In this document: positions 42 to 64,000 of the stretch, piece by piece | Layout: each line of letters begins with the position of its first letter | Numbering within the stretch: position 1 is the stretch's first letter | DNA from: Tribonema minus | Lineage: Eukaryota > Sar > Xanthophyceae > Tribonematales > Tribonemataceae | Assembly: GCA_017506865.1 (NCBI GenBank) | Contig: JAFCMP010000067.1 | Span: forward strand, 248,001 to 312,000 | Direction: 5' to 3' | DNA: 64,000 nucleotides | Position numbers and translations under genes: made by a program | Notes under the pieces: model-generated | What the model saw: only the letters and a program-made list of their open reading frames with translations | Databases searched by the model: none | What the model was told of the DNA's origin: nothing

Positions 42-2936
42 ATGAATCCTCAGTTCCAGCGGAGGCACATCGGCCCCAGCGAGGCCGACACAGAAGAGAT
101 GATGAAGTTGGTAGGTGTATCCTCCCTGGATGATCTGGTCAGCAAGACGGTGCCCCACGCCATCAGGCTCAGCGAGCCCCTGTCCCTGGATGCCCCACTC
201 TCGGAGTCTGAGGCGCTGGCGAAGCTGAGGGCCATCTCCCTCAAGAATGAGGTGAAGAAGTCCTTCATCGGCATGGGCTACTGTGAGACGATCACCCCCC
301 CGGTGATCCTGCGCAACATGCTGGAGAACCCGGGGTGGTACACCGCCTACACCCCCTACCAGGCGGAGATCTCGCAGGGGCGCCTGCAGTCGCTGCTGAA
401 CTTCCAGACGATGGTGGCGGACCTGACCGGCATGGCCATGAGCAACGCGTCCCTGCTGGACGAGGCGACGGTAAGTTGCACCAAAGTTAACTGGGGTATA
501 TGCAATATGAAGCACAGTTTGTAGCAGCACCAGCCTTTTACAGGATCCGACTTTTCGTGCCAGGATTTATCGCTCTTGGTTTCGCCATTGATCGACTCAT
601 TGTCTGAGTGAATCTGAACGAGCTGCACTCGCAGCAAGCGCAGTCCTTTTTGTGAACAGCTGTGTCCCTTGGACACACTTTCGTCGCTGTAATTCTGATG
701 TTGCGGTGCGTTGACATGAAGACAGTTGTAACAATTCATGCAAGATCCGCCCGAGGTCATGTGCTCTGGACCGAAGTTCTTTTGTTTTCAGCATACAGCT
801 ACAACAAGCCAGCAGCTTTGTGAGAGAGCAGATAGCCTACAGGTCCATCATCAGGCCTTCAGATTTTGATGGCTTTCAGGCAGCACATTGTTAGCTTGCG
901 TGCAGATCTGTAGCTTCCGGTTGGGTGATTTGGATGCAATGCCGTGGCTGCAGTTGCGCGCAACCAGTAGTACACAACTGGGCGCAACCAGTAGTACACA
1001 ACAGGGCTTTTTGCACCCCAAGCGAGACTAATTCGCAAGGACACGATGCCCAATAAATGCAATGAGAGGGGACAAGTATGCATCTTCCACAGAAGCGCAA
1101 AATAACAATAGATGGACATTCAGATGGATCATGTGACGGAGTACACCATGTCAGGTGACGAGAAGCAACAATAGAGGTTACAGTTGTCGGGTCCCTTTAA
1201 GGGCGTACCAGCAAATCATTGACAAAATGCCACTCTGCAGCAGTCCTTGTGTGCATCCGGTCAATGCATTACACTTTGGGCAATTAGATTTTTGACTGGC
1301 CTGTTGACAACCGCGCTACTTGTGTCTTGACGTTCCGCTGCTTTCAAAATGTTCTTGCGGACTCGGTGTTTGGCTAGTTTGCACTTCATCACTGTCGTGG
1401 TAGTACGCAGTCGTGGTAGTATACAGTGGTCAATACTTGGGGCAGGTATGCAATGAGTTGTTCTGCGTTGAGCAAAATTGCTCTCTCTTTACGAGTTGAG
1501 TGGGATGTCAACACTTCCTCCTTGAGCATAGCATCCAGAGTTTCAGAACAGCCTGATGTTCAACACGTGTTTGTTACATACACCAACTCTGATACACTTG
1601 CTACGGACCATGTTCGTTGAGTGTTTCGCATTTCATGACTGTATACATGCCACGCAAATTGGCCTCAGTGTCATGGAAGCAATTGATGCAAGTAGGGCAT
1701 GCCCCTTGGTCGCGCTGCATGGACAGCGCGTCTCCGCCACGATGCTCAGTTGAGCAAGCGGTCTCCGCTAACATACTAGATGCACTCCCACCTGCTCATA
1801 CCCCCACTCTTCTCTTGACACCTGCACATTGCGCGGATGCCCAACTCAATCACCTGCGCACTCCCGCGCCTCCGCGCCTGCAGCGCAGACGTGCGCAGAG
1901 GCCATGTCCATGACACACTCGCGCGGCGGGCACAAGTGCAAGAAGTTCTTTGTCAGCACCTCAACTCTCATCACTTCAACACTCATCACCTACCCTCTCT
2001 CCCTTCTCAACCACGCCTAATAACGCCAGGCGTGCGCGGAGGCCATGTCCATGACGCACTCGCTCGGCGGGCACAAGTGCAAGAAGTTCTTTGTCGCGGA
2101 CGACGTGCACCCGCAGTCGCTCGCGCTCGTGCGCACGCGCGGCGGCGCCATCGGCCTCGACATCATCGTGGGCGACCCCGACAGCGTCGACTTCAGCGCC
2201 GGCGACTTCTGCGGCGCGCTGGTGCAGTACCCGTCGACGTTCGGCGCCGTCAAGGACTACGCTGCGTTCACTGAGCGCGTGCACGCCGGCAAGGTGAGCG
2301 CTGCTGCTTGGGGATTTCAGGGGATGATTGGGGGGGCGGGATGCTGGGCTGCAAAGCGTCGCAGGGGGCAAGGGAGGGGGGCGAGCCATAGTGCACTGGC
2401 GGCTGTGATTGCTGGCGTGAGATGAACCGACAAAGAGGAGGTCGGAGTGGTGATGTCTGTGAGCGCGCTGCGCACGCGTGTGGCGTTGCTGGCGCGCAAG
2501 TGGCGGCACTGCCGCTGTATTGTCTGGCCTGCAGAAGGGCAACAGGCGTTGGACAATGTGCCCTCTCTGCGAAGAGTCCAGTGGAGGGAAGCACCACGTG
2601 CATCGCAGCTAGACCGGCACCGTCCCGCTTGTGCAGGCATACAGCTGTTAACCCCAATTTTATATTGCAGCAGAGTAAACCCTAAACTGCAGCAGATTGA
2701 ACACTAAACTGCAGCAGGGTACTAGCAATGGCGACATCACCTTTGTGGCTGATGGGCTACCTCACCTACTGGAAATGACAAAATCTGTTTCGTCATAAAT
2801 CTGCGTGCATCACAGCTCACCCCCTCCCCCCCCCCTCCTACCGCAGGCGCTCGTGGTGGCGGCCACGGACCTCATGGCGCTGACGCTCATCCGCCCCCCC
2901 GGCGAGTGGGGCGCAGACATTGCGGTGGGCAGCGCT

Positions 2937-2971
<35 letters not shown>

Positions 2972-5900
2972 CCACGCTGCGTTCATGGCGACGAGCGAGA
3001 AGTACGCGCGCCGCATGCCCGGCCGCATCATTGGCGTCACCATCGACTCGCGTGGCAAGCCGGCGCTGCGCATGGCCATGCAGGTACGCCGCCGCAGCCA
3101 CTGCCGGGCGTGAAATGAGTGAACGGATTAGAAATGACCAAATGAATTGATGTATGCCCGGCCGCACCATCAGCATCACCACTGACTCGCGCGGCGAGCC
3201 GGTGCTGCTCATGGTCTTGCAGGTACGCGCGAAATTAGTGCATGAATTGGAAATGAGTGAATGAATTGATGCGTGCGGAGCAACGTCGGCGTCATCATCG
3301 CCGCGCGTGGCAAGCCGGCGCTGCGCATGGCCATGCAGGTCCGCGCGCGTGAAATGAGTGCGTGAAAATGAGTGAATGAATTCATGCATGCCCGGCCGCG
3401 TCGTCGGCGTCACCATCGATGCGCGCGGCAAACCGGCGCTGCGCATGGCCATGCAGGTGCTTGCCGCCGCCGCCGCTGCGCATGAAACTGGTGCAATCAG
3501 AGATATGTGAATGAATTGATGCGTGCAGAGCGTTGTCGGCATTGCCGAGCGATGCGCGTGGCGGGCCGGCGGTGCGCAAGGCCAAGCAGGCGCGCGCGTG
3601 AGCGTGAGCGCGCTTGTAGGGTGCACATGCATGAGTGAATGACTGCACGAATGGATAAATGCGCCGCGTGCCCAGTCGCATGATTGGCAGAGACGCGTTG
3701 TGGTGCGGTCCGTTCCATGGCATCACAGGTGTGTGCTGCGCTGTGCACACCCGCGCCAACGAGTGCGCCTTCGCTACGAGTGCACCATTCAGCGGGCAAG
3801 CCTCAACGAATGAACATGTGAAATGAGGCGCGCCACGTGCTCATACACTGGTCGGGCTGCGCAGCTCACCGGCAGTTCGTAAGCACTCCGTGGTACTGCT
3901 CGCAGTGCATGATAAGACGCGCGGGGGGGCGCGGTTATGCACGGACAAAACGTTTGGTTGGCAAAGACAATTTCGGGGGCATGTCACTGTCAGCTTGCGT
4001 GCAGCCTGGCAGGCGCTCGCGGGATCGGCGCGACGAGCGCCGCGCGCGAAGGCGGTTGTCGCGACAACACACACGTGTCAGCGGCGCGCGGACGAGTTTC
4101 CTTCGTGCGGAAGCACTTTCGCCGTGCAGTCAGCGCGCCGCCGCCGCCAGCGCCTCGGCAGCAGCTCGGTTGCCACCCAGGCTCGCATGATGCGATCACT
4201 GCGCATGCTCGCGCTCGCAGCAGCACACATTCTACCCGTCGATCGTTTGTGGGAGGGCCGCCGGTTGCTCGCTGCCCCGACGCGCACGCCCTGACAGCCC
4301 CCCCCCCCCCCTCGCGCTCCCCCTCGTGCAGACGCGCGAGCAGCACATCCGCCGCGACAAGGCGACGAGCAACATCTGCACGGCGCAGGCGCTGCTGGCC
4401 AACATGGCGGCGTCGTACGGCGTCTACCACGGCCCCGAGGGCGTCAAGGCCATCGCCACGCGCATCCACGGCATGGCCAAGACCACCGCCACCGCGCTCA
4501 GCCAGGTGGGTGCTGCGTTGAGTTGGGGGGAGTTTGGGGGGGGGGAGGGGGGGTATCTCGCTGAGGTTGGAGGGGGAGAGGGGGGGGGGGGGGGGGGGGT
4601 ACAGGGGTACACACGTGTGAGCTCACTGCGGCGCGCCAGACTGATGGCGCGTCTGACTGATGGCGCGGCTGACTGATGCGGATGGTCTCCTGGGTCTGTG
4701 TTGGGGTAGTTTGTGGGGGGGATGTTGATCACGTGAACTCATCGCGGCGTTTCAGACTGATGTGGGTGGTATCCTGCCGCTTCTGCGTGGTGTGCGGCGT
4801 GTTCACATTGTTTAACGGGGCGCCTGAGGCGACGGGCTCGTTGCGGCGCTGTTCGCTATTGTTCGACGCGCGTCGGGGGGGGCGGGGGCTGGGGCTGGGG
4901 CTCGTCACTTGGCTCTGGAAAGGACTGCGCGCTTGGGTATTGCACATGTTGTGCACTTCGAGCCACTTGTGTGCGAGGCGCACCGTTGCGCTGCCTGATG
5001 TCACACGCATCACACGTGTTGCTCACCCCCACCCCCCCCCCACCCCCCCCCCTCCCAGGCCGGCTTCAAGGTCTCCTCCGCGCCCTACTTCGACACGTTC
5101 ACGGTCGACGTCGCGTCCAAGGGCAAGGACGCCGCCGCCGTCGCCGGCAAGGCGGCGTCGCTCGGCGTCAACGTGCGCGTCGTCGACTCCGCCACCGTTG
5201 GCCTGAGCTTCGGCGAGGCGCACACCAAGGACGACGTTGAGGCGCTGCTGGGCGCATTCGGCGTGGAGGCCAGTGCGCTCGACGCGGCGGCGGCGGCCGC
5301 GGCCGGCAGCGGCGTGGACGCGGCCTTCGCGCGCGCGACGCCGTACATGACGCACCCCGTGTTCAACACGCACCACAGCGAGACGCAGGTGGGCATCGCA
5401 GCGCGGCGGGGGATACCCGTTGTTGAGCGCTGCTGGCAGTTTGTCGCGACCGCCGGCACTTCCCCTGATTGAAGTGCGACTGTTGTGGACTGCAGTTGAG
5501 CGGCGGCCGCGATGATGCGCAGCCGCGCGCGGGGGTCGTCGGCGCATGCATCGTGTCATGTGTTTGTGAGCGCGTACGCTGTCGCACCTGCAGGGTAGTG
5601 CACCAGCAGTTTTGATCAGCGTAAGCGTCAGCATGCGTCGTTGTTCACGTCAGGTAGATGCATGCACAACAATGCGAAGTCTGCACCTTCAGCGGCGATA
5701 CGCAGCACGGCATCATACCCAATCTCCACCAAGATGCCACAGCTGACGCATACATGACGGTGTCCCCCCCTCTTCCCCCCGCCCCCCCCCCCCCCCCCCT
5801 TCCCCGCAGATGCTCCGCTACCTCAAGTCCCTGGAGAACAAGGACCTGTCCCTCAACACGTCCATGATCTCCCTCGGCTCGTGCACCATGAAGCTCAACG

Positions 5901-6048
5901 CGACGAGCGAGATGATCCCCATCACGTGGCCCGAGTTTGCCAACATCCACCCCTTTGCGCCGCCGTCGCAGTGGCCAGGCTACATGGAGCTCATAGACAC
6001 GCTCAACCGCGACCTCGCCGAGATCACGGGCTTCGCCGCCGTCAGCGC

Positions 6049-6081
<33 letters not shown>

Positions 6082-9000
6082 GGGGCTCCTGTGCATCAGG
6101 TATACGCTTGTTCATACACTTTTTCGGGCAATCCAATGTTGAAGTACTTGTTGATGTGCATGCAAGTATGTGGCTGCGCCGCCGTCAGTGCGCAGCCCGA
6201 CTTGGGCGCGCAGGGTGAGTGCACGGGTCTAGGCGCACGCCTCATGAAAGTTGGTCTTCCTGTGTCAAAGTATCAAGGTCCGTATGTAAGTATAGCATAT
6301 GAGGCGTTGCCGCTGTCAGCGCGCAGCCCGGATCCGGCGTGCTGGCAAGTTCAAGGCGCTGTGCATCAGGTACACCCCCCCCCCCCCCCGCCTCTTCCCT
6401 GCTGAGCACTGTGATGCTTTCGTCTTGCGAAAGTGATTTGCGATGATGGCATTAATCGACTGGTAGTACCTGTCGGCACAGAGATCTTTGTGTGTGGGCA
6501 CAGAGATATGCGGCGCTGACAGTGGTGCGCTGCTTGAGGGCAAAACGCTATGAAGTAGTAACCACTTGTGCACGTATCTACCGATTTGCCCCGTTGCATG
6601 CTTCATATTGTGCCATTGCCCGGTCCCCACCCCCTTGTATGTACCCTGGCGGTCTCAAAGCGCTGATCGCTGCTACTGCTGCCTCTGCGCGCTGTGCAGG
6701 GAGTACCACATCTCGCGTGGCGACCACCACCGCAACATCTGCCTTATCCCCGTCAGCGCGCACGGCACCAACCCCGCCAGGTAGGCCATCGCAGCTCCGC
6801 TTGTCTGTGGCGTCACTGCTGACGGTCGCAGTCGGGCGATGTGCGCTCGATTGAGCAACCTTTCATGCGAAGCATTTCGGGCTCAGCTCCAGGCTCTTTC
6901 AGCATGAAACAACTTTACAAACTTCGCTGTACATTCATGTGCCATGTTACCGTCACCGCGCACGGCACCAACCTCGCCAGGTGCAAATCCTCTGCTCATA
7001 ATGCGAGGCATCCATGTTGGAATGCTGCCTGTCGCTGGTGTACAACTCGCCTGCAAGTGCATTGGTCGCCACGCATTGCAGGCATCACAGCAGTTGCTGC
7101 GCACCTGCTACAACTGACAGCGGCAATCACTTGGCATCCTGCTCATCTCCCCCCCTCCCCCCTTGCTGCTCTGCCTCTCTCAACACCACAGCGCCGTGCT
7201 GTCGGGCATGAAGGTGGTGGTGGTCAAGTCCGACGAGGCCGGCAACGTGGACTTTGAGGACCTCAAGGCCAAGGCAGACAAGCACAAGGACAACCTCGCG
7301 GCGCTCATGATCACGTACCCGTCCACGTACGGCGTGTTCGAGGAGGTGAGCGCTGCTGCTGCTGCTGAGCAGTGTCGTTGCTGAGCCGTGCCACCGTTTC
7401 AGGCTTAGCGCCGCTGCGCTGCCGTCGCGCGTCTCGCTGCTGTGCTTGCTTGTCCCCTCATGCTGAGCAGCGCTGCCTGGCGTTCCCAGCGGCGCACCCA
7501 CCACTGCTCTCCTTTTGCGCTCTTGTGAACGCATCTGAGGGGCGAGCGCCACCCGCGCTCATTATGGCACCGACAATCTGGCGAGCCGCCTTGTCATGGA
7601 TGGAAATGCGTACCGTGGTTCGTAATCGTGCGTCTCTCTTTGCACGCGTGGACCTGCGATCGCCGGTGCGCGGACGCAGCTGCTGCAAACTCCGCTCGCG
7701 CGCCCCGAGCGCCGTTGCCAACGCCGGTGCGCCTCTCTGTGCATTGCCGCGCTGGCGCAGGGCATCAAGGACATCACCAACTACATCCACAAGAGCGGCG
7801 GCCTCGTGTACATGGACGGCGCCAACATGAACGCGCAGGTGAGGCAGCGCTCCGCTCCATGCCTCAGTGCTCAGCTGTGCCCCCCCCCCCCCCCACCCCC
7901 CTTCGTCCCACCGCCGTATGCACCGCGTGCACGCTAAATCCTCGCTGGTCTCGCGCTCATGGGTTCTGAGCCGCCTTCCGCTGTGCCCTAAGGTTAGGGT
8001 TAGGGTCGCATCTGTTGCTGTGAGCTTGACTCGTGGTGCTGCCAAGTCGTAACGACCTGTCTGCGGCTTTGCCCAACCCGAACCTGAACCCCTGACGCAG
8101 CCCACCCCTCCGCGTGAGCAGCCGCTCCTCTGCGCTGCGCTGGCGCCGTACACGCGCGCCCCCCTTGCAGGCGCTCACACTGCGACCACCGCACATCATA
8201 ACCCCTCTGAACGCGCGTTCCTTGCCCCCCCCCCCCCCCCCCCCATCCCCCCATGCAGGTGGCGCTCACGAGCCCCGGCCACATTGGCGCGGACGTGTGC
8301 CACCTGAACCTCCACAAGACGTTCTGCATCCCGCACGGCGGCGGCGGCCCGGGCGTCGGCAGCATCGGCGTCAACGCCAAGCTCGCGCCGTTCCTGCCGG
8401 GCCACCCCGTCATCCCCACGGGCGGCGAGGGCAGCGGCGTCGTGGCCAAGACGTCGGGCGCCGTGAGGTGAGAGGTTCTGTCGTGCGCATGCTATGCGCA
8501 TCGTGAGCGCAGTGACTACGGCAGATGTGTAGGGCCGCGTTTACCGCCAGGCATGCAGTTAGGTGGAGGGCAGCGGCGGCGTCGCCAAGACGTCGGGCGC
8601 CGTGAGGTGAGAGGGTTTGGCCGCGTGCATTGCGTCGCGCGTGCGTGCGCGTGCCGTCGCGGCGTCGTGAGCGCTGTGAGCGCAGCAGGTGTGTAGGGTC
8701 GCGTGTACCGCCAGGGCGTGCAGAATTCTGGCCGCCCTGCGGCAGGTACATGGGCAGCGGGCGCGTCCCCCCTGAGGTATCCAGCGTCTCTCTAGCGGTC
8801 GTTTATCTAACCTGTTGCAGCCGAGTGGTAACAGGACAGCCCCAGGCCTTCTCCCCATACCGCGTTTGGTTAGGGTTAGGGTTAGCCCGTCGTACACCTC
8901 AAAGTACTCACCACGCCTGTCCTCCCCATTACTGCTCACCTGGTGCCTCGTGTCCACAATGCTTGCCGCGCACGGCCTAGGCGACGCGGTTGCAATATAC

Positions 9001-15279: not shown

Positions 15280-15477
15280 CCTCCGTCTGAGCTCGACGAA
15301 CTTCAACGAAGGTTCCGAAGTCCCGGGGAATTGGCTCTGCCCCGGGATCCTGATTGACACGTGGTGCCACTGGCAAACACCTGGCAGCACACCTCTCCCG
15401 CGCTGACCACAGCTCACACACGCTCATGCTGCACGGAAGCCGCCGACTGCAAGATTTCTACCTAATCCACTGAACTC
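15280..15477. promoter_or_regulatory. Short divergent promoter region
   Basis: Only 198 bases separate the assigned start codons of the ATPase-fragment gene (-) and the SIL1-like gene (+). Any core promoter and both 5' UTRs must share this space. No TATA box is evident. Confidence 0.5.
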
Positions 15478-50500: not shown

Positions 50501-53500
50501 TCGCACAGCAAGGCGCATGAACGCGTGCGGCGCGGTGCACACGATGGAGCCTTGCAAACGCACTTCTGTTGCTGCGTGCGTGCGTGCATATGACTGGCTA
50601 TGTATGTGAACAGGGCGTCATGGTGAGCAACCCCCCCCACTGAAGCGGGAGCGTGTGCGTGCTGCCTCGGTAGTTTATTTGATGTAATTTGGCGACCACA
50701 TTTTGTGTCTCGCTCAATGTATGCTGTCGTCATCGGCGTGCACACGCTCGCGCTCCGCTGCTGCTGCAGGCATGAGCAAGCACTCGTCATGTATGAGTAC
50801 AGCCCCAGAATTCAATGTGCCAGTCCTAGTACTGTACGAGTACTTGTGTACGAGTGCTTCTACGAGTACAAGTAATGAGTAAAGACTTGTCTCGTCCCAC
50901 TTGTGGCATCATGTGCGCATAGTACACAAGCGCTTGTGTGTTGGTGGACAGCAGTGAGTGGTGGACAGCAGTGATCCGAGAACTCCTTGTTTATATACAT
51001 TCATATGATACCACTGGTCATGTATGTGTACTCAATGATGTGATATGCACCGATGTGATGCATAGCAGCCCTTAGGGCTCGCCCAAGTCAGCTCTGCGTA
51101 CATGATGTGCGTGCCAGCGCGCTCTGACCATGGGCGGTGGTAGTGCAAGCGCACAAAATCACGCCAACACTGTGGCGTCAGCGCAACCGACAGCAGTATC
51201 TTCCAAGATTGCACGATGCTGCCGAGCAAGCAGCAACGGTATCGAGCAAGCCTCTAAGCAGGCGTGCCGTGAACAGAGTAGGCGCGCCGTGCTGCATCGG
51301 TAGTTTATTTGATGTAATTTGGCGACCACGGAATGTGTCTCGCGCAGTGTATGCTATCGTCATGGGCGTGCGCGCGCGCGCTCTGCTGCTGCTGCTCACT
51401 GCTGCAGCGTACAAGGTGATATTGTGCGTTTTGACGAGATCTGCAAGCAATGCAGCACCGCACGTTTCAAATCATCTCAGCCAATACTGTGCAGCTGCTG
51501 CAACAGCACGTATCCTTCATGTTGACGACCTGCGTGGTTTTGTGTCTCGCATGCGCCTCTATATGGCACCATACGGCTGAGCACTGATACACACACAGAG
51601 AAACGGCATGTACAGCGTGCTCTTACAACATGCTCAATACACACCAAGACAGAGACTTCTTGCCAGCAATGCCTCGTGGTCACCAGCTCCACAATACTTC
51701 AACTCTACAAACTTCAATTTTTACTCGACTCGCGCAAGCCAGTGCTTGGGGGGGTGCATACATGGCCAGCCAGCCGCGCGTAGTGAGGGTCAGCAGGGAT
51801 GGGGGGCTGGCACCTTCTGGAACTCGCCGTGGCTGATCTCGCACAGCTTCCTAATTCACCTTGCGCTCTGTACATGTCAAAGACGAAAAAAAGTCAGCAT
51901 AAAACTTCAACTCTATAACCTTTAACTCTACAAAACCTGCAGAGAAGCAGTGCTTGGGGTCCATGGGAAGAGGCAGAAGGGGGTGGAGGCGCACCTTCTG
52001 GAACTCGCCGCGGCTGATCTCGCACAGCAGCTTCCACACCTGCAGGCACTCCGCGTCGCCGCTCTGCAGCTTGACGACCGTCTTGCGGCTCACGTCCTTG
52101 AACTCCTCCGACTCGTCGAACGCCTGCTTGGCGCCCTGTGAGACAATGTACGCATGCAGTGTTTGAAAGGAGAAGGCGTCGCGTCCGCAATATTCAGCGC
52201 ATTGGCCACACTGATTTTGCGAGGCACTGATTCTGCGCTGATTTTGCGGAGAGATGGCGCTGGACGCCTGCGTGGCGCTGTGCACGTGCAGGTTGCGTGC
52301 CCCCCCCGAGAAGCTCAGTGGGGCTGATGGTAGTGACTGAACTGTGCGCGAGCGACGGTGTGGTCTATACGCGTCGAGCATGCCAAGAATCTCAACGCAA
52401 GTGTAAGCCGCAATGCACATCAGTCACAGTGCCCGAGCGTGCCCACCGCGTGGCCACGTAAAAGGCGATCAGGTCCGTCGGCTGCCGCGGGTTCATGAAC
52501 AAGCCCGAGTGCGGCGTCATCACGAGATTAACGAGCACGCCAGCACGTCATGTTAGCACAGAACTTGACCTTCCTTGCGCTGACGCTCGCTCAAGCTCTA
52601 CTGCCGGCCGAACCGACTGGACTGACCTTGTAGAAGGTGGTCAGGTCCGTCAGATTCGGCGGGTGCGTGAGGAAGTCCGGGTACGCCGTCTTCATGTGGT
52701 TGATGAGCATGCCGAACTGCGTCCCCCAGTCGCCCACGTGGTTGACGCGCAGCACCGCGTGCCCCGCAAACTCCAGTATGCGGCAGATGGTGTCGCCGAT
52801 GATCGTGGAGCGCAGGTGCCCGACGTGCATCTCCTTCGCGATATTCGGGCTCGAGAAGTCAACCGCGATCTTCAACTTGCGGTTCGCGGGCAGCGGCGGC
52901 GGCGCGGGCCCGTCGCGCGCGAGCGCGCGCACCGCGTCGCTAATGAACGTCGGCCGCAGCCGCACGTTGATGAAGCCCGGGCCCGCCACGGACGTCGACT
53001 CGACGAGCGGCGACGGCGGCAGCGCAGCGATGATCGCGCGCGCGACGTCGTGCGGCTTGGCGACGCCGCCGCCGCCGCGCGCCTTGAGCAGCGGGTACAG
53101 CGACATGGGCGAGTTGCACTGGAAGTCGCCGTGCTTGTACTGCGCGCACTTGCCGAGCGCTGCCTCGACGTGACCCAGCTGCGGCGGCGCGGCGCAGCGG
53201 AAGAGGGAGGAGGGGGGGGAGCTGAGGTGGGGAGTGCAGCGGGCGCGAGTCTGGGAGTCACTGGCGGCGGCGCAACCGCGGTAGCAGCAGAGCGCGCTGC
53301 TGTGGCGGCGGCGGGAATGCTGCCGCTGAGGCGACCGGCTCAGAGGCACCTGCGGGCGCCGCGCGCTGTTGCACTGAGCAGGACATGCGGAGAGCGGTCG
53401 CCGACCGCCGCCTCTGCCCCTGTGCGCAGGTAGGTATGAACGACCGCAGGGGGGGGCGATCGCACGCCGCCACGGAAGCACACTGCTCCCCGCGCGCACG

Positions 53501-55861
53501 AGAGCTGGTGCGCAGCGCCCACCCCCCGCATCATTGCTCAGCCACAGCGCACCGCCCGTACACGACGACACAGTGAAGCACGTGGCGCAACACGGCACAC
53601 AGCGCGCCGCCGCCGCCGCTCACCTCCGGGAACGCCTTGCTGATGGCGGCCGTGAACAGCCCGCGGATGCTGCCCAGCAGCCCCTGTCCGGCGACGTCCG
53701 CGCTGCCAGCGCCGCCGCCGCCGCCGCTGCTGCCGCCGCCGCGGCACGCCGCGACCAGAGCCGCCGCCTGCTCCGCGACGCCGGCCAGCTGCGGCAGCGC
53801 GGCGACCGCTGCTGCGTACGCGGCCGCGCGCGGGTGAGCGGCTGCCGCTGCGGCGTCGGCGCTGAGCGCTGCTTGCGCTGCGGGCGCGGCGATCGCGTCC
53901 GCGACGGAGGCGGCGGACTGCGCGCGAGCACGCACGGAGGCGGCGCGGGGGCGCGCGCGTGAGGGTGCGTGTGAGAATGCGCCTGCGAAGCAGCAGGCAG
54001 GCTTTGTACGATGTGTTGACGCTGTTTCAGCGGGCGAGTGCGCAGCTTTGGAGCGCGTGCTGACTGCGCTGCGGGCGCGGCTGAGGCGCGCGTGTGGGAG
54101 GCGCGAGGTGCCGCGCAGAGAGACGCAACCCCGTCACCCCCCAGGGGGAGGGGGAGAGACGGGGGCCGCGCGCCCGATGCGAGAGGCGGACAGAAGAGCG
54201 GCAGCGCACTGCGCGGTGTGCTGCTGGCACCACAAAATCGAGTGAGCGCGGCTCGCTAACGGCCGCACGTGTCACGGCCGCGACTGCCTCAGCAGACCGC
54301 ACAGCAGCGACACACGATGCACGCCTGCGATACGCATGACGGCGGCGCAATGGCGGCATGAAATATGTATACTTCAAAGTTATGCGCGGAGCACTGATGC
54401 AGCTGAGCAGGAGCCTCTGCAACCAGCATGCTACTGCTGCTGGTAGATTGCACCAGCAGCAGCACTGCCACGACATGGCTTTAACCGTGAAGACCTGTAC
54501 CGTTGAAGTTGTCAGGCATGTCGTATGACCGTTGCCAGTTCACAGCAATGTGGGTCTAGGTCTGGCTCTGGCATGGCATTATGAGAGAGAAATGCATCAA
54601 CGTGGAGGACAAAAGGACAGGAAATTATCTGATTATCAATAGGGATTGTGCCACCCGCAAGTCAAGTGACATGGAGGAAGTACTACTGCCACTATCAGGC
54701 AGTGTTGAGCACGTCAGGGACCGTGCTGGCTACTAGAAGTACCCTCCAGCGATAACATAACAGTGCAGGCAACGTTACTTAGTGAAGGCCACGCCACGGT
54801 CGTCCAGTGCACCACGAGTGCGCGTTGCGAGCTCACATCACCGCTAGAACATGTACCGAGCGGAACCGCTGCTGCACCCCATGAATGCACACATCCCACA
54901 TGTCCACGACCACCGGCGACATGCGGCTGATGCACGACTCCGTCGCGCTGCGCGATACATACGATCGCTGAGACCCAAGCCAACATGTCCGTGCATGCAA
55001 GCATCTGCCATTGCGCACTACTCACCCCTGCCAGGAAACCCCCTTCCTGCGACCCCAGCCGCGCTTCCAGCGCCGCCAGCAGCGCGCCGCCGCCCCCCTG
55101 CACCTGCGCCTGCGCCCACGCCGTCGCCGACTCCGCCGCCGCATCGCCCGCCGCGTCAGCGGTGTACATGAAGTAGCGGCATGCGGCGCTCGTGCCGAAC
55201 ACCAGCTCTGACTTCTTGACAACCAGCACGCAGCTGCCGGCGAAGGTCAGGTGCGGCGCTGGGTGGGACAGGGCGGGCGCGACAGCGGCGCCTGCCAGGG
55301 CTGCCGCCATCAGCACCTGTTGCGCAGCCAAGGCGTCTTCTGCATACAAGCAAAGGTCGCAATTGGCCGCCGCCGCTGCTGCAGCTCCTGCCGCAGGCGC
55401 AGCTGCTGCTGCCGCTGCCGCCGCTGGCGCCGCTGGAGGTTCCGGGGACTGAGATTTCGCGGCTTTGGACGCCTTTTTCAGCTGTTTCTTGCTGGGCCCC
55501 TCTCGCGCTGGCTTGGGCTGCGGAGGCTGTTTTTCTTTCTTGCCTACTGCGCTCGGAGCCTGGTCATAGTCCGAGCCCGTGAGTGCTTTGAAGTCCTTCT
55601 TGAGCTGAGTCAGGGAAGCCACCTCGGGCGCAAGAGCGGTTTTATCAACGCCCTGGCCTTTGAGTACCCTGATCTTCTCGCCCTGGGCGACGATCGAAGC
55701 CTGTCACGCACGCCAAGGCAGCAATCACCACAAAGTCATCAGACGAATATCTCAAAAGACGTCCTGTTTGTCTGCGTTGCGCTGCTCCAGCATCGCCGTT
55801 GCGTGGACTGATGGATTCGGTACAGAGTATTATTGTTGCTCACCTTTAATTCCTCTGCCAT
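44584..55861 (-). CDS. RARS1: Arginyl-tRNA synthetase with WHEP and GST-like N-terminal domains, 11 exons
   Basis: Exons on the minus strand: 55861-55844, 55700-55026, 53917-53624, 53178-52627, 52135-51995, 50006-49902, 49219-49025, 47837-47712, 46684-46585, 46287-46022, 44802-44584; 896 codons. Class I enzyme charging tRNA-Arg in the cytosol. N-terminus: WHEP-like hairpin ([19 protein letters not shown] to [10 protein letters not shown]), a Lys/Pro/Ala linker, then a GST-like fold ending [18 protein letters not shown] and [16 protein letters not shown]. The catalytic part is colinear with eukaryotic Arg[32 protein letters not shown] (the HIGH motif is HVGH), [27 protein letters not shown], and [14 protein letters not shown] in the KMSKS position; the C-terminal anticodon domain includes [20 protein letters not shown] and [20 protein letters not shown]. 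The start is the ATG giving MAEELK directly before the WHEP segment; an upstream open stretch (55960-55862) could add residues. Introns 4-8 and 10 carry exon-edge echoes. Confidence 0.95.
44933..44966 (-). repeat. Echo of ArgRS exon 11 start with its acceptor
   Basis: On the minus strand GCGCAG|TTCACGGACGTCGT repeats the true acceptor and exon start at 44802, about 155 bases upstream in intron 10, then diverges. Confidence 0.8.
45750..45930 (-). repeat. Two copies of ArgRS exon 10 end with donor
   Basis: 45930-45887 encodes [13 protein letters not shown] followed by GTGAGC, close to the true end [19 protein letters not shown] (46022). 45790-45750 is a weaker copy ending in CAG|GTGACC. Both lie in intron 10. 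Confidence 0.75.
47000..47020 (-). repeat. Interstitial telomere-type repeat in ArgRS intron 8
   Basis: CCCTAA units on the plus strand (TTAGGG on the coding strand). More such runs, partly degenerate and in both orientations, lie at about 47132-47190, 47300-47350 and 47650-47678. Confidence 0.85.
47381..47651 (-). repeat. Two copies of ArgRS exon 8 end with donor
   Basis: 47651-47602 and 47429-47381 each encode [13 protein letters not shown], the last residues of exon 8 (true end 47712), and each is followed by GTGCGTG. Telomere-type runs sit beside each copy, so the duplicated unit includes them. Confidence 0.85.
48411..48950 (-). repeat. Tandem array of ArgRS exon 7 end with donor (about five copies)
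   Basis: Diverged copies of the exon 7 stretch encoding [20 protein letters not shown] plus DMVFE lie at about 48950-48870, 48838-48771, 48705-48621, 48598-48525 and, weakly, 48471-48411. The middle copies keep a GTGCGTCAC donor like the true GTGTGTCAC at 49024. The intron piece with AACTGCCAC or AACTGCAAC is repeated too. Unit length is about 100-155 bases. Confidence 0.88.
49334..49513 (-). repeat. Two copies of ArgRS exon 7 start near its acceptor
   Basis: 49380-49334 and 49513-49471 repeat the exon 7 start GAGGGCGGCGCGACGGTGTG (true start 49219) with the following CATGCTGGACGG-like text. They lie upstream in intron 6. Confidence 0.8.
49625..49798 (-). repeat. Two copies of ArgRS exon 6 end with donor
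   Basis: 49798-49757 encodes [12 protein letters not shown] followed by GTGCGCGGGCGCG, close to the true [17 protein letters not shown] at 49902. 49665-49625 is a third, more degenerate copy. Confidence 0.83.
51811..51851 (-). repeat. Copy of ArgRS exon 5 end with donor
   Basis: Encodes [12 protein letters not shown] and is followed by GTGCCA, against true [19 protein letters not shown] at 51995. The following intron text (CAGTGCTTGGGG and CTTCAACTCTA) is repeated after both, giving a unit of about 190-210 bases. Confidence 0.84.
52457..52520 (-). repeat. Diverged copy of ArgRS exon 4 end
   Basis: Encodes [16 protein letters not shown], recognisably the exon 4 end [17 protein letters not shown] (52627), in intron 4. 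Confidence 0.65.
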
Positions 55862-56609: not shown

Positions 56610-59600
56610 TCAGTTCTTGCCCATCTTCTTCTTGGACGACGGCGCGCGCTTGCTCGCTGCCGCGGACGCCGCCGCGTCCTCCTCGCCCCACTCCCAGTCC
56701 TGCGGCGCGGGCGCCCTGCGCGATCACGACACGCCGCGTACAGCTGAGTGTCAGCGTCAACGTGTCAAGAGTGGTCGTCAAAGCACCACATGTGGAGCAG
56801 TCGCTTGCACGCAGCGGGAGGGGGGGCAGGCACGCATGCGTTGCCTGTTCGGGGAGGGGGGGGGGGGCGGGGCAGGCAAGGGGGGGCACACGCACAGCAA
56901 GAGGGGGTGCAGAAGACGTGCATATGGGAGCGGGGGGGCTTTAGTGCGCAGGGGGCCAACGGACGAGGATGGTTTAAAAGTTGGTTGCACAGCTTCCAGG
57001 GGCCCCTGCCTATGCAGCATGAACACGCAGCTTGCCTGCACACCATCAGAGTGTGCATGCGCGCCAGACCGCCGCATGCGGGGGGCGCTGAAGCTTTCTA
57101 GGACCATGAGCTGCAAGCGCAGCGCAAGCGGGCGTGTCCTTCCTGCAGCGCACGCACCTGTTGTGGTACTCCATGCCGCCGCCCTTGACGACGGCGGTGT
57201 GCGTCGCCTCTATGCTCTCGACAAACTCCCTGTTGTGCGACACGACCACGACTGTCCCCTCCCAGCCCTTGACGGCCTCCACGAGGCTCTCCAGCGTCTC
57301 TGCGTTAGGGCAAACGCGAGCGGGCAGGTGATGAGTTGGGGCAAATCATGCGGCATGTTGGTATATGCTAGCGGCAACAGGCGGTTAATACGCAGGGAGT
57401 TTGACATGGACGGTCTCCATATGGTGCATGAAGCTGAAGGTGGCGGTCCCGTTGTCACCTTTGACACTATGAGGTTATCGGCGCCACGGTTTACAGCATA
57501 ACACTGCCATTTCGCTGTTGATGCGCTGGTCCGGCGACCGCTGCGCAGCGCGCGCCGCACAGCCCGCCAGCGCCTACAAGGCAAAACATGCACGGCGGAG
57601 GGCACGCTGCACGTGCACAACGCGCCGCGGCATGCGCACGGCCGCAGCTCAGACGTATGACCATGCTGCTGCTGCTGCCGCTGCTGCTGCCGCTGCTACT
57701 GCTGTTGCTACGTCTACTACAGCCAAAATAACCGCTGGCTGCTGATAGCCTCTACATGCATGGGCACACACACACAGCATGGATGGGCGACGTGTCTGTG
57801 CTGCGCATGCCACGCCGCGACTGCGCAATGCATTCCACGCGCCTGTGTCGAGGTGGTTGCTGGGCTCGTCGAGGAGCAGCAGGTTGTGCGGTATCATGCT
57901 GAAGATGGCCAGCGCGACACGCGCCTTCTCGCCGCCCGACAGCCAGCCGATGGGCCGCAGCGCCTTCGGGCCCGTCAGCCCGAGGCCGCCCAGCACGTTG
58001 CGCGCCTGCGCAGGGGGGAAGAGCAGGGCCAGCATTTCAGTTAAAGGCAGCGCTCCAAGGTCGAGATGAGCCTTACAGTATGCCAGTTAAGGGGGGAGGG
58101 TCAGGGTGAGCTCCATTGTAATGAGCAGCACGCTGCGCGCCTGCGCAGGGGGGAAGTAGTGTCAGGGTGAGGGTCAGAGTCAAAGGTGAATGTTGTGGGT
58201 GACCGTAAGTCAGGACACTGTAGGAATGAGTCGCTGCAGCCAGCCGCCTTGTTAGGCAGGGTGCTGGGTGCTGCACGCACGCCTGAAGGTCGCAGCACAT
58301 GTATTGCTTGTGATGCTTGCGTGTGCGGCAGGCGTACTACAAGGTGGCAACGGTTCACCGAGGTCAAAACAACGGTGCTCCCGCAGACAGCCGCACTTCC
58401 GATCTCAAACGCATCAGCCCGAGCCCTTGTTCAGGCGCCGTACACGACTACTCGCACGCCGAGTTTGCGCACGCCACGGTGTTGCACTCGGCAGCAGTAT
58501 GGTGCGCATCCATCCATCCGGCGGGGCACCACCCGTGATGAGAAGCAGGCGCGCAACGTAAACACGCACTGGAGGAGAAGGCGCAGCGGAAGTATCCCCC
58601 AAGAACTTCTCAGAACGCGCAACTTTGTACTTCAAGTACTGTAAGCAAAGTGCAGCGTGCGCAGCGCTCAGTGCTCAACGCTGACCTGCTCGTCGCTGAT
58701 GGTGGTGTCGTACTCGCGGACTTTGTGCAGCACGTGCTCCAGCGCCACCGCGTCCTGCGGCAGATCTGGCGCGCAGGTGCGGCGCACATGGGGGGGGGAT
58801 GGGAGCGGCAGCAATGGCACCATACGGTCAGCAGTGGCGCAGCAAAGGCCGGTGTCTATGCGAATGAGTGCTGAAAGCGCGCAGCGCAGACTGGCACGGC
58901 TAACAACGAGCGGTGTCACCCTGACCCTGATCGCGACCTGATCATAATTGACGCGGCCAACAACTAAATATTCCATGCCATGCCGCAGCTCCCGTACCTT
59001 GCGCGAGGCCCTGCGTGAAGACGCCGCTGCGCCTTCGCTGTCTTGCACTGCTACTGTCGCGTCACTGCAGTGGCGCACATGCGACCGCGCGCTCGGCGCG
59101 ACTGAACGTTTGAGCTCTTGGCCCCTGTGTTGATGCGCATCAGACAGTAGTCAACTTCACATTCCACGCCACGCAGCAGCGCTCGTACCTTGCGCGAGGT
59201 CCTGCGTGAAGACGCCCATGTTGAGGCCCTCGCCCTCGACGCGCGAGCCCGACTGCAGCGGCAGCAGGCCGGCGATGGCGCGCAGCGTGGTACTCTTGCC
59301 TGCGGCGGGGTGGGGGAAGGGGGGGGGGGGGGGGGGGTGATGCGACGGCCGTGCTGGGAGGTGAGGCAGGGGCGTCGTGTGCACGAAGTCACAATGGGCA
59401 CGCCACCATGAGGACAAATGTGAAACGTAACCCAGACGTCGCATCAGTGCCTGCCCTACACCCTGAGAGTTTTTGTCCACTGTACACGCCATCAACAGCC
59501 TCATCAAGCTGCAGCAGCATTGCAGACAAATAGCGTGCGTCGAGTGTATGCTTTGGCCTAGAACTTCATCCCGTGAGGGCTGATCCAAGCAATGATGTAA

Positions 59601-62600
59601 CTTGCCGCCACTCACAAAGCCGTCAAACCCCAAAGGCAGGCTGCAGCTAGGAGAAACACAGTGTTGCAGCTGCCAGATGCTCATTGCGGGGTGAGGAGGT
59701 CCCGGCTGCGCGCAAAGAGCCATGCGGCGGTCACAAAACAGGCGCATGTGCATCTGAAAGTGAACGTTCCACGTGCGCACCGCAGCTCACCTGCGCCGTT
59801 CGGGCCCAGGATGACGAGTCTCTGCGGAAGCGGCAAGGAGAACCAGGCAGCGGCATTTCGTCAGCGCGCCGCAGAGCACTTCAGCGTCAGCAGCTGTGAA
59901 CTTCATTTCCAGCTGTGAGTGGCATGCCACCACCCTAGCCCCCCCCCCTGGCAGGTGGTGACTGACGCCGGGGAGGCACAGCGCCAGTGCGACCTGTGCA
60001 AGGAGACAGTGACGAGACCGTGCATGCTGCACGCCCCTCGCAGAGAGCGCGGCCATCACCACGTCAAGCCAGCATACCCTTCTCGTCCGGTGGCGAGCGA
60101 CATGCCACCGCACCTTCCCATCTGAAGGTCGAGCATGGCATTGGCGCAAGGTACATGGCAACATCCAGCTCTGAAACCAGGCAGTGCATTTTGCAACTGC
60201 TGTCGCAAACTCATCATACCATGCCAGCGTCTCGCGTAGCGCATCAGAGCCACTGCTTACGGCCACAATTGGTGTGAAAAATCATGAAAAACAGTGGCGT
60301 GCATCATGAATTCAAGCTGCGCAGAGTGGCTCGCATCACCTGTCCCTCGAGCAGCTCGAGGTCCCCTAGCAACAAGCAATGACAACATCTAACTCTAACC
60401 CTAACCCTGAAGCCGGACGGTGCATGTTGCAATTGCTGTCGCAACACCAGTGTTGACACTGTCATACCACGCCAGCGCAGACCGCAAGCGCATCATCACC
60501 TGTCCCTTGAGCAGCTTGAGGTCCACGCCGGCGACGGTTGGAGCGTCGCCGCCCCAGCCGTACGCGGCGTCCTTGAGCGTGATCTGGTCCTTGTGGCAGC
60601 TCGGCGGCGCGGGGAGGCGCATGCGCGCCTTCATGACCTGCGGCAGGCAGTGGCGCGGCGCACAGCGCAAGAAACGGGCGTTGATGAGCTGCAGGCGACA
60701 CGTGCAGGTGGGCGGTCACGCCGTCGTGGGAGGCTGAGTTGGCTCTCGCTTGAGGCCACAAAAACGCACAATGCTGAATCCTGCCGCTGCCATCACCACA
60801 TGGCGGCGTACAAGAGTGAGCGTGTTGCGCGGCAGTCACAGTGTGGTTTTTTGTCAGTAGTTGCGCCACCGAACTGCGAGCATGTGGTGCTGACTGCGCT
60901 GCCGTCGCCGAAAGCAGCACGGCGCGAGGCGCGCGCAAGCCCACGGGAAGGGGAGAGGTACGGCCACTGTCACGGCAGACCTGCAACAACGTCACATAAG
61001 GTGCTCCAGGCGCGCTCGCAGTGAACATCTACACCCTGTTCTGCGCTCTGTCGTAAGTGTCGAAGAGTGATGCGCAGGCCCCATGATGGAATACAAACGC
61101 CGCCAGCTGCCGCGGTGGTTCTGGAATGCGCTATGTAGCGCCGTTCTCGGCGGTGCATGGGGGCGATCAACGAGCGCCGCGACGGCAGCCTGCGCGCGCA
61201 CACCTTGCGCTTGAGCTCGGTCGGGTCGTCGCTGGCCGCCGCGGCCATCTTGTCCAGCTTCTTCTGCCTGTCGGCTGCCATCTTGGCGCCCATGGTCTTG
61301 GCGCCTGCGGGCAAAGAAGGGGGGCGCGGCGCAGCATCACGTTAGCTGCTGCAAACGCGGCATCACATCAGCTGCCCCGCTGACGCATGAAGTGTCCGTG
61401 CTGCGTGGCAAAATGCGCTTCTCCGCTGCTGCCGTCGTGAGACGTCGAGTGCACTTGCCGATGGCCTGCAGCAGAAATGAGTGTTTCTGCGCGTGCATTG
61501 CAGCTTCGTGGCGCGGCGCAGCACTTGGCTGCCCCCCGAGAAATTTGCACCCCCGGGGCCCTCTGGGCCCACCTAACATTATCATTGCTATTTGCGTGCA
61601 CACGTGCAGTTATGGGTACAGCAGAGAGGGCCAGCATGGGTACGGCTTCAGCGGCGGCGGTGGCAGCGTAAACAGGGTTTGCAGACGGCGCTGCTCAGGG
61701 AAGTGGCGGCACGCGCTCGTGCTGCGGCGCATGCGCGGCGGCGCACGAGCGGCGTCTGTACGCAGAGGGAGCCCTGCCTGTTTGACAATCAGCGGTGCAA
61801 GCGCGCTCAAACACCGTTGAAGAATCCGCAGGCAGACTTCTTGAACTTCCACAGATGCGGCCTTATTCGAGTTGAGAAGTGACATGCGCTGTGAGTCGGC
61901 CTGTGACGACAGCGCGTTGGCGCCGTGACAGCGGCGCAATGGCGGCTGCAGCAGAGCTCAGTCGGGCACGTCAACCTCAACACTAGCGCACATCGGAAAT
62001 GGCGTAATGTGTCGCAACGTCGCCAGCGCCGCTGCAGCAACGCACCGTCATGCATGCCCGCTAGAAGCACAAGTACACTGATCGATGGCCAGGTGCATGC
62101 GCATCGCAGCCAGCAGTGCAGCGCTCAGCATCGTGTCAGGGGGCCAAGCAACTGCACTATCAACCAGTTTGAATTATCGCGTTGTTCAACTCTTGGTGTC
62201 GTAAATACCACCCTCATCTGAGGCTCAGCAACCTCGCAAGCCACTCTATTCACCGCCGCTGGGCAGCAGACGTCGGCGTCAGCGCGCTCACCGAAGCGGT
62301 CGATGACGGTCTGCATGCGCGCCATCTCTTCCTGCTCGCGCTCAAACTTGGCCAGCGCCAGGCGCACGCGCTCGTCGCGCTCGAAAAGGTACTTCTTGTA
62401 CCCGCACTGTCAGGGGAGGGGGGGGGGGGGGGGAGATTGGAGTTCACTTGAGTATGTATAAGAGCGGGCAGTGCGAGTAGCACTGCAGTTGTGAGACGTG
62501 AGAGTGCGGTGCGCAGCGGGGCTGCGGGGGTTGGGCGCGCCTAGTGCGGCCGCAGCAGGCTCTGTTGCCGCCGCGATGAAGACGCACAGGGCGCGGCACG

Positions 62601-63567
62601 ACCAGCGCGCGCTAGCGCGAGGGGCGCGCGTCCAGATGGCCGCTCTATTTCATCGCAGTGCCGCGCACAGCAGGTGCTCTTGCTGCGCAAGTTTGTGCTG
62701 CATCGGCTGTCTCCAGTGGCCATCATGCGTCAGAGAGCGCCGTGCGTGCTGTCCGCGTGCGCAGAGGGTGGCGCAGTGTCACAGCAGCTTGAAGAAAACG
62801 AGCGAGCGCCGCCGTCCGCCGCGGCGGGTGCCTCGTGAAGCGAGGCGAGATTCTGCACGATCGCGTGCGCGCACTCGCACCTTGAACACCTCGAGCTTGC
62901 AGTTGGCGACCTCGGCGATGGTGGTGCAGCGGATGGCCTCCATGAAGGCCTCGTCGTGCGAGACGACCACCACTGTTCCCTCGTACGTCGACACGTACTT
63001 GCCCAGCCACGTCTTGGCGGCGCTGTCGAGGTGGTTCGTCTGCGCGCCAGATGCGGTGCGTGCATGGGGGAGCGCGGGGTGGAGGGGAAGCGAACGCCGC
63101 TGTCAGGTGAGCAAGGCAGATGGCGGTGCGAGTGATGCGGCAACTGCCGGCCAAGTTTGCACATTATTGGCGAAGGCCTTCAAAGCACCACAGGCTAGTC
63201 TTTGCCCCCACGCTGCGCAGCATTGTGCGCACCCCGGCTTCCAGTCGCAGTCACGCAGCAGCGACGCTCAGCGCGTTCACCGGCTCGTCGAGCAGCAGCA
63301 GCTCCTCCGAGTCGGAGAACAGCATGCCCGCTCGCTCTTCCGGTCACAGTTACGCAGCAGCGATGCTCAGCGCACTCAGCATCTCGCTCGCTCTTCCGGT
63401 CACAATTACGCAGCAACGCTCAGCGCACTAACCGGCTCGTCGAGCAGCAGCAGCTCCGAGTCGGAAAGCAGCATGCGGGCGAGCGCGATGCGCATCTGCC
63501 AGCCGCCGGAGAACTCGGTGCACGGCGCCTCGTAGTCCTCAGGCTCAAAGCCCAGGCCCGTCAGGAC
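56610..63567 (-). CDS. ABCF-family twin ATPase, 5' partial, 11 exons seen
   Basis: Exons on the minus strand: 63567-63433, 63039-62881, 62406-62292, 61304-61204, 60637-60500, 59821-59791, 59299-59189, 58765-58686, 58005-57843, 57299-57158, 56715-56610; 426 codons with matching phases. Domain 1 enters at VLTGLGF and shows signature TEFSGGWQMRIALARMLL, Walker B LLLLDEP|TNHLD and switch VVVVSHDEAF; its Walker A lies beyond 64000. The helical linker (FEREQEEMARMQTVIDRFG, GAKMAADRQKKLDKM) matches the P-site-interaction linker of ABCF proteins. Domain 2 has Walker A GPNGAGKST, signature WLSGGEKARVALA, Walker B LLLLDEPSNHLD and VVVVSHNREF. The tail is Lys-rich, ending KKKMGKN. No membrane segments. 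ABCF ATPases act on ribosomes in translation or biogenesis; the subtype is not resolved. Intron 9 appears to be GC-AG. Confidence 0.95.
57300..57842 (-). other. Probable GC-AG intron in the ABCF gene
   Basis: The exon ends ...CTCGACACAG|GCGCGT and the next begins CGCAG|AGACGCTGG; joined, they give NHLDTETLESL as expected in ABCF proteins. No GT donor near the site keeps the frame. GCGCGT is a weaker GC donor than GCAAGT. Confidence 0.65.
58133..58160 (-). repeat. Copy of ABCF exon 9 acceptor and first bases
   Basis: TTCCCCCCTGCGCAG|GCGCGC on the minus strand repeats the true exon 9 acceptor at 58005, about 130-135 bases upstream in intron 8. Confidence 0.8.
58984..59030 (-). repeat. Copy of ABCF exon 7 end with donor
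   Basis: Encodes GVFTQGLAQ followed by GTACGG, against true GVFTQDLAQ|GTACGA at 59189. Confidence 0.83.
60340..60385 (-). repeat. Copy of ABCF exon 5 end with donor
   Basis: Encodes DLELLEGQ followed by GTGATGCG, against true DLKLLKGQ|GTGATG at 60500. A short telomere-type run follows on the plus strand at 60390-60409. Confidence 0.82.
63275..63340 (-). repeat. Copy of ABCF Walker-B exon end with donor
   Basis: Encodes RAGMLFSDSEELLLLDEP followed by GTGAAC, against true ARMLLSDSELLLLDEP|GTTAGT at 63433, in the following intron. One extra Glu codon is present. Confidence 0.84.
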
Positions 63568-63604
63568 CTGTCAAGGGGTATGTATGCAGGTGTGTGCGAG
63601 GGAT

Positions 63605-63910
63605 AGAGTTAGGGTTAGGGCTTAGGGTTAGGGCTTGGGGTTAGCGGCGCCTCGTAGTCCTCGGGCGTAAAGAAAGCCAAGGCCCGCCAGGACTTGTCGC
63701 AAGGTACGTGCAAGACGAAGTCACGCTACGTCATGGACGTCAGTGACGGCAGCTGGAAATGAAATGCCATGTTCTGACTTCAGATGGATGCAAAGCACAC
63801 AGCCTTGGCTAACCCTAACCCTAAGCCTAAGCCGAGGCCCGTCAGGACCTGTTGCAGAGTACGCGGGTGGGTGCGAGGGGTAGGGTTACGGTTAGGGTTT
63901 GGGGTTAGGG
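63605..63910 (-). repeat. Copies of ABCF exon start with acceptor, beside telomere-type runs
   Basis: Minus-strand copies at about 63700-63640 (LAGLGF..., EDYEAPL) and 63852-63832 (CAACAG|GTCCTGACGGGCCT) repeat the start of the exon at 63567. TTAGGG-type runs in both orientations lie at 63608-63644, 63809-63830 and 63881-63909. Confidence 0.8.
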
Positions 63911-64000
63911 AGTGACGCCGCTGTGTACACGGCAACTTGAAGTAGAATGCCGTATTCTGACTTTAGCACCCGCCACCGCTCTGATTGACGGTGATCAGGT

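Follow-up and report, generated by a model that had tools for sequence, protein, structure and literature searches.

Why should introns carry copies of the exon edges that adjoin them? The question is raised by a stretch of 64,000 nucleotides of the Tribonema minus genome (bases 248,001 to 312,000 of contig 67, from an assembly of 158 Mb in 554 contigs; hereafter, the window). Three unrelated genes of the window, encoding the glycine cleavage P-protein (GLDC), an arginyl-tRNA synthetase (ArgRS), and an ABC ATPase, have introns that repeat the preceding exon end or the following exon start, most copies extending across the splice border. Counting as a border echo any copy of an exon edge with more than 10 exon bases that lies inside an intron, we find echoes in 17 of the 56 window introns (seven in GLDC, six in ArgRS, four in the ABC ATPase gene), in agreement with an original prediction, made from the sequence alone, of at least 17 introns in three genes. 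Self-alignment of the window places the copies where they were predicted, in direct orientation. The explanation we favor, with a probability of about 0.7, is that short tandem duplications are frequent in this genome, and that copies of borders are spliced out with the intron, decay neutrally, pass a filter against exon-like products, accumulate as arrays, and are in part homogenized with the exon edge.

The analysis covers the window plus 200 kb from neighboring stretches and other contigs, a main sample of 264 kb to which the counts below refer unless a different set is named, and a held-out set of a further 50 kb in five stretches. Exon borders of GLDC were first set by eye (13 exons) and used to train a gene finder, a small hidden-semi-Markov model with exon penalties, which was then retrained on its own predictions. 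It recovered the 13 training exons, with the first start 3 bases earlier, and added a 14th (11576–11719); this recovery is no independent test of the gene finder. Of the 200 introns predicted, 77 contain a local direct pair of any kind, and border echoes occur in 53 of the 197 introns of genes with at least two introns. Roughly a quarter of the sampled predicted introns thus hold copies of the borders that flank them, decayed to widely varying degrees.

The excess of direct copies is general. After complexity filtering, the main sample contains 233 direct and 15 inverted local pairs, and one first-order Markov shuffle per contig contains none. The 124 kb around and including the window contribute 71 direct and 7 inverted pairs (shuffle, 0 of either), the held-out set contains 37 direct pairs and no inverted ones, and direct pairs outnumber inverted ones on all nine sampled contigs. 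The copies are concentrated at splice borders: a 50-base exon window placed at the donor has a copy in its own next intron in 44/181 cases, a frequency that falls to 32/176, 13/163, 5/148, 0/128, and 0/105 when the window is moved 25, 50, 75, 100, and 125 bp into the exon, with stray matches beyond (2/85, 1/73, 1/38). Acceptor-side windows, moved inward from the border in the same steps, give 17/192, 12/188, 5/175, 2/160, 2/138, and 2/113. When donor-side windows are compared with one random intron of another gene, only 10/1564 match. Grouped into 100 arrays, the copies straddle borders in 64 cases, lie within introns only in 20, within exons only in 8, and between genes in 5, and are mixed in 3; six of 38 non-coding arrays resemble missed exons, with scores that reach or pass the 95th background percentile.

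These observations bear directly on the possibility that unresolved reads or haplotypes were left in tandem by the assembly. Such an artefact is hardly credible here: the exon parts of the copies have diverged to identities of 72–98%, the direct excess recurs on every contig sampled, an array with the same junction is found on two contigs (array 1 of GLDC, see below), and the copies favor splice borders. The original argument against a simple assembly error is therefore upheld.

The structure of the copies indicates how they arose. Of the primary events, 41 are donor-side, 19 acceptor-side, and 26 intron-internal. In 48 of 69 donor-side copies, the intron sequence that follows the border aligns with that following the echo better than do shuffles (p≤0.01), so most copies are tandem DNA duplications spanning the border, intron sequence included, as originally proposed, and not copies of spliced RNA; on this ground we set aside exon-only copying from RNA as the main route. 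The other 21, without intron-half homology at p 0.01, are decayed or partial. Spacings of the 60 primary border events range from 89 to 281 bp, slightly wider than the 90–250 bases first given for the unit, and events inside introns are often more closely spaced than those that span borders. Thirteen of the 60 spacings fall within 136–150 bp, a clustering too weak to claim a nucleosome-sized unit.

Exon-part divergence ranges from about 2% to 28% among copies, in line with the suggestion of repeated events over time. The 'graded decay' described earlier holds as this spread of ages, but similarity is not ordered by distance: in only 7 of the 18 introns with two or more donor-side copies is the copy lying closest also the best match. 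Mean identity is 0.89 in the exon part and 0.79 in the intron part (37 copies in which 20 or more intron bases align); the second value is close to the square of the first, as would be expected if only the echo drifts in the exon half and both copies drift in the intron half. Exon and echo disagree at 124/1276, 103/1286, and 205/1286 bases of codon positions 1, 2, and 3, respectively (9.7, 8.0, and 15.9%), and we read the doubling at position 3 relative to position 2 as an echo drifting everywhere beside an exon that changes mainly at silent sites. Indels occur in the exon part of 21/73 echoes, and echo spacing shows no bias modulo 3 (23, 28, and 22 copies with remainders 0, 1, and 2). With change at all positions, indels, and flat spacing, the echoes do not behave as coding sequence, and we see no sign that they have a coding function. 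Among the exon-only arrays, six of eight spacings are divisible by three (78, 81, 207, 168, 123, and 69, as opposed to 866 and 184 bp); duplications inside exons occur as well, and seem to pass mainly in frame.

How could a gene tolerate a second copy of its splice border? The echo donors are strong. GT is kept in 58 of 65 testable cases, 34 of the 65 equal or exceed the score of their intron's real donor, and the median score is 6.42 for the 58 echo donors with GT and 6.24 for real donors. Competition between splice sites, raised in the original prediction, is plausible on these scores. What the echoes tend to lack is an acceptor. An acceptor-like site, defined as an AG with a positive upstream score no more than 14 bases before the echo, precedes 6/41 primary donor echoes, compared with 30% of matched positions in other introns (binomial p 0.017) and 27% in the same introns (p 0.043); the test scored only sequence upstream of the echo and, in its final version, one echo per intron. 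In the remaining 35/41 primary echoes no such acceptor was found within 14 bases of the copy. A stricter cut leaves 1/41 echoes against 17% (p 0.004), and when all copies are counted the values are 9/74 and 32%. This depletion runs counter to the idea that the echoes are cassette exons preceded by acceptors.

The strength of the echo donors is also what would be expected if the echoes were functional, as decoy or alternative exon ends maintained by selection, for instance to regulate splicing, and it is at echo arrays alone that introns of the two GLDC paralogs described below still match. We consider this improbable, because the echoes change at all codon positions, carry indels, and show no frame bias in their spacing, because acceptor-like sites are depleted before them, and because the retention of GT is close to the 79% predicted by decay.

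The extent of the duplicated units suggests a similar constraint. In the 60 primary events the exon part measures 18–99 bp and never more, against a median exon of 184 bp, so that no copy of a complete exon was found among them, and the intron part is never below 43 bp. In a uniform simulation run through the same type of detector, 41% of the donor events lie beyond 0.64 of the unit (Kolmogorov–Smirnov (KS) p 1.6e-7). We provisionally interpret these limits as the survival of copies that cannot be mistaken for exons. The limit on the exon part is provisional because the gene finder may absorb echoes with a long exon part or a short intron part into predicted exons; eight exon-only arrays and four exon–exon pairs are possible cases. 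In the sample from contig C1, predicted exons of 48–51 bp at 29785–30095 and 46894–47592 are near-copies of the start of the next exon, and are probably echoes called as exons.

Introns with donor echoes have a median length of 682, compared with 473 for introns without any repeat. The idea that echoes lengthen introns agrees with this difference, with the caveat that long introns offer more room for matches.

A paralog of GLDC on contig 32 (88% amino-acid identity) offers a comparison: its fourfold-site divergence from the window gene, 0.35, exceeds the exon-part divergence of the copies (~2–28%). Intron–intron matches between the paralogs at E 1e-6 are confined to introns 1, 3, and 6, at their echo arrays, and other border echoes are not shared (introns 7, 10, 11, and 12 in the window copy only; 2, 5, and 8 in the paralog only). 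Common descent seems likely for arrays 1 and 3, since array 1 has an identical downstream junction in both genes and array 3 a similar intron motif, as judged by eye, whereas the match in intron 6, limited to the exon-derived part, may have arisen independently in each. In array 1, five sites nevertheless place each echo with its own locus's exon, and no site joins the two echoes. Unless an identical duplication happened twice at the same positions, echo and exon at this border must have been homogenized, through conversion or unequal exchange, since the paralogs separated. Over 149 bases, the last predicted GLDC exon (11571–11719) matches the paralog at 96% identity, compared with ~77–92% for the other exon blocks, suggesting recent conversion between the two genes.

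The paralogs, and the introns at large, also speak to the birth of new introns. Introner-like mobile elements and the duplication of AGGT exon segments are both established routes to new introns (PMC9860276; PMC3443670). As an account of the echoes they are very improbable. Sequence in common with another intron (E 1e-6) is seen in only 17 of the 200 introns, and these comprise six from the GLDC paralog pair, seven around an apparent single dispersed repeat, and four in two pairs of neighbors. Among the pairs listed (at most six per intron, for 200 introns), none has the spacing equal to intron length that duplication of an AGGT segment would give. The exon blocks of GLDC, compared by eye, end at the same places in both paralogs, which argues against intron birth in either form.

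Our preferred explanation, frequent tandem duplication followed by a splicing filter, assembles these results as follows. The genome would undergo frequent short tandem duplication of its DNA. A duplication that spans a border would survive where splicing keeps to the outer of the two sites, meaning the earlier donor or the later acceptor; the extra border would then be removed with the intron, leaving the protein unchanged. That the extra border decays as neutral sequence is shown by the divergence pattern. Survivors would be those that make unlikely exons, with an exon part below ~100 bp, at least 43 bp of intron, and few acceptor-like sites upstream, a pattern present in the data that we attribute to selection. 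Repeated rounds would build the arrays seen here and, to judge from those arrays and from the greater length of echo introns, would lengthen introns. Some arrays outlive gene duplication and, as shown at one border, are homogenized with the exon beside them, whether through gene conversion or through unequal exchange.

Several observations weigh against this explanation, and the first two of them are those expected if borders are themselves mutational hotspots, owing for example to transcription-linked breaks near donors, in which case the bias would come from the lesion and not from a filter. Duplication plus a filter predicts evenly distributed starts, so it counts against our reading that, below ~14% divergence, starts per kb number 1.00 at donors, 0.53 at acceptors, and 0.28 in intron interiors, a donor-to-interior ratio of 3.6 (gene-bootstrap 95% interval 1.9–7.2). 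These densities assume a 150 bp unit, and simulation gives near-equal detection up to that divergence (0.93 for non-coding, 0.95 for donor, and 0.98 for acceptor events). The donor-to-acceptor ratio is 1.9 (1.3–3.0). Border echoes also cluster by gene, affecting 6/6, 4/4, 7/13, and 6/10 introns of some genes but 0/19 and 0/14 of others (permutation p 0.0002). Echo-poor genes tend to be low-complexity predictions, judging by eye from pieces of seven genes, and model quality may contribute to the clustering. No significant correlation was found between echo frequency and coding score or GC3. The density of non-coding arrays does not rise with GC, and exon GC therefore does not explain the border bias. 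Among the 20 copies whose exon identity reaches 0.93, four lack intron homology at p 0.01, which suggests partial copying or conversion over plain duplication. Homogenization is clear at one border only, array 3 being mixed (window exon to its echoes, 0.68–0.90; exon to exon, 0.87). The held-out set holds 13 non-coding arrays to 5 border arrays, and all exon borders are our own predictions.

A hotspot is a possible cause that we entertain tentatively. Beyond the donor density and the clustering by gene, it would account for the ceiling of 99 bp on the exon part, well short of what the uniform simulation produces, and for a link with telomere-like repeats, which would then be scars of repair. 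Introns (172 kb) contain 29 runs of TTAGGGTTAG and intergenic sequence (80 kb) contains 6, and one second-order shuffle of the 264 kb has none; in the window, such TTAGGG runs lie at 10112–10146, 41091–41125, 63599–63644, and ~8870–8886. They are present in 12 of 58 echo introns and 6 of 142 others, under a looser echo rule than that of the 53/197 count. Part of this excess comes from intron length (53 kb vs 97 kb), echo introns being longer. The repeats fit error-prone break repair, and our guess is that such repair also gave rise to the duplications. Against a hotspot stand the acceptor-to-interior ratio of 1.9 (0.8–4.4), not significant alone, and the arrays away from borders: 20/100 are in introns only and 5/100 between genes, and of the 20 held-out arrays (5 border, 5 intron, 8 intergenic, 1 exon, 1 mixed, with 20 predicted introns in genes above the score limit) the 13 non-coding ones show that the process also acts elsewhere. 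Relative to the number of introns, border arrays are similarly frequent in the held-out set, and its larger non-coding share speaks against a strong border bias. Rather unlikely, in our estimate, is a fuller version in which borders, donors above all, are dedicated duplication hotspots whose edges and echoes keep exchanging sequence by conversion, so that introns grow from their ends and echo variants flow back into coding edges and splice sites.

Within the window, GLDC occupies 42–11719 on the forward strand, with 14 predicted exons and a match to PF02347 (E=4e-178) over its N-terminal 478 amino acids. Its seven echo introns contain, in order, an acceptor-side echo at 1886–1954 of the exon start at 2030–2095 (spacing 141 bp, 94%; same junction in the paralog); a donor-side array at 3013–3593 for the exon end at 3083, with source 3013–3085 and echoes at ~3154–3223, 3280–3339, 3386–3458, and 3555–3590; a donor-side array at 6029–6375 for the exon end at 6099 (source 6029–6105; echoes 6172–6230 and 6303–6375); a donor-side echo at 6936–6982 of the exon end at 6780, the pair spanning 6736–6982 by self-alignment; a donor-side tandem duplication at 8427–8723 for the exon end at 8467 (copies 8427–8558 and 8566–8723); a donor-side array at 9288–9826 for the exon end at 9340 (source 9288–9350; echoes ~9516–9593 and ~9764–9826); and an acceptor-side echo at 10695–10759 of the exon start at 10829, spanning 10695–10848 with a spacing of 89 bp.

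The ArgRS gene (44584–55861, reverse strand; PF00750, PF05746, and PF03485) has 11 predicted exons and six echo introns. The intron at 44803–46021 lies within an echo region of 44784–46060 that combines a donor-side pair (45997–46060/45860–45922), an acceptor-side pair (44784–44921/44937–45069), and an internal pair (45010–45137/45158–45285). Donor-side arrays follow in intron 46685–47711 (extent 47320–47757; source 47650–47757, echoes 47599–47651 and 47320–47429) and intron 47838–49024 (extent 48413–49126; source 48995–49123, echoes 48837–48968, 48736–48837, and 48492–48669). Intron 49220–49901 (extent 49173–49951) has both a donor-side array at 49597–49951 and acceptor-side echoes at 49328–49397 and 49469–49528. 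Single donor-side echoes occur at 51810–51847, of the exon edge at 51991–52028 (97%; extent 51810–52028), and at 52458–52541, of the edge at 52630–52713 (extent 52458–52713).

The ABC ATPase gene, which we take to encode an ABC-F protein, covers 56610–64000 on the reverse strand and is predicted to run to ~68098, beyond the window (PF00005 twice and PF12848, ABC_tran_Xtn); a single internal stop interrupts its joined model near the end of the frame, making the gene end imprecise. Its four echo introns in the window hold donor-side echoes at 58961–59025 of the edge at 59152–59216 (extent 58961–59216), at 60334–60364 of the edge at 60494–60524 (extent 60334–60524), where telomere-like repeats lie slightly upstream in the gene direction, and at 63238–63327 of the edge at 63393–63476 (extent 63238–63476), and acceptor-side echoes at 63645–63698 and 63829–63910 of the edge at 63523–63633 (extent 63523–63910). 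A possible further acceptor-side echo at 57991–58156 on the same strand, the pair 57991–58021/58126–58156 (31 bases, 97%), dropped out of the pair list based on gene models.

Other repeats were observed alongside these. In-frame tandem repeats in predicted coding sequence at 37215–37376 (81 bp at 92%) and 16264–16406 (27/51 bp units) are consistent with the same duplication process filtered for frame. Positions 2537–2647, in GLDC intron 2, belong to a dispersed repeat found at 76–77% identity on contigs C507, C371, and C206 also. Contig 32 has, at 198000–207999, a 1.4 kb inverted repeat of 83% identity with copies ~6 kb apart. The assembly has 92 matches to the light-harvesting family, as expected of an alga, and its ribosomal RNA locus looks ochrophyte-like; both suggest a photosynthetic stramenopile. 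The light-harvesting matches include pairs of equal or near-equal score across contigs (C79/C1, C490/C296, and C70/C489), hinting at segmental duplication or retained haplotypes.

Intron lengthening and the tolerance of border copies have usually been argued from single cases. Few genomes offer such a view of growing introns, or of how a cell still settles on the correct splice site when strong echo donors stand close to the real one. This one offers dozens of natural experiments on donor choice by the spliceosome, on what makes a pseudo-exon harmful, and on whether breaks target exon edges. For annotation the echoes are a hazard, as gene finders may call them as exons in such genomes.

The original prediction held that no named system matches this pattern. 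That is not so for the elementary event, known as tandem genomic duplication (PMC4974935), but for its scale, its concentration at borders, and the homogenization we found no description. No report of border-centered duplication at this scale was found in the open-licence literature, as judged from titles and the openings of abstracts. A review lists tandem genomic duplication as one of seven routes of intron gain (PMC3443670). In the potato RdRp gene, a tandem duplication copied an intron–exon structure, as in T. minus, and an 83 bp duplication lies within an intron of the same gene (PMC4974935); unlike that case of one gene and one new intron, the present one involves 53/197 introns, mainly at donor borders, with no new intron shown. 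The same paper relates the vertebrate ATP2A1/ATP2A2 case, in which duplication of a segment likewise gives second copies of splice sites; there an exon segment turned into a new intron, whereas in T. minus the duplication affects a border already present and adds only to the length of its intron. Introners change intron content on a large scale, disproportionately in aquatic lineages (PMC9860276), and the echoes resemble them in scale but are local to each border, unlike dispersed families.

Two broader phenomena complete the comparison. Short intragenic tandem duplications are reportedly a common eukaryotic mutation, termed internal gene duplication and attributed to Gao and Lynch in 2009; the T. 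minus copies differ from these in their concentration at borders, their arrays, and their homogenization with exon edges. Tandem arrays undergo concerted evolution by conversion or unequal exchange, and array 1 is alike in that its copies resemble their own locus over the sister locus although the duplication is shared. Unlike in ordinary concerted evolution, one member of the array here is a coding exon edge under constraint.

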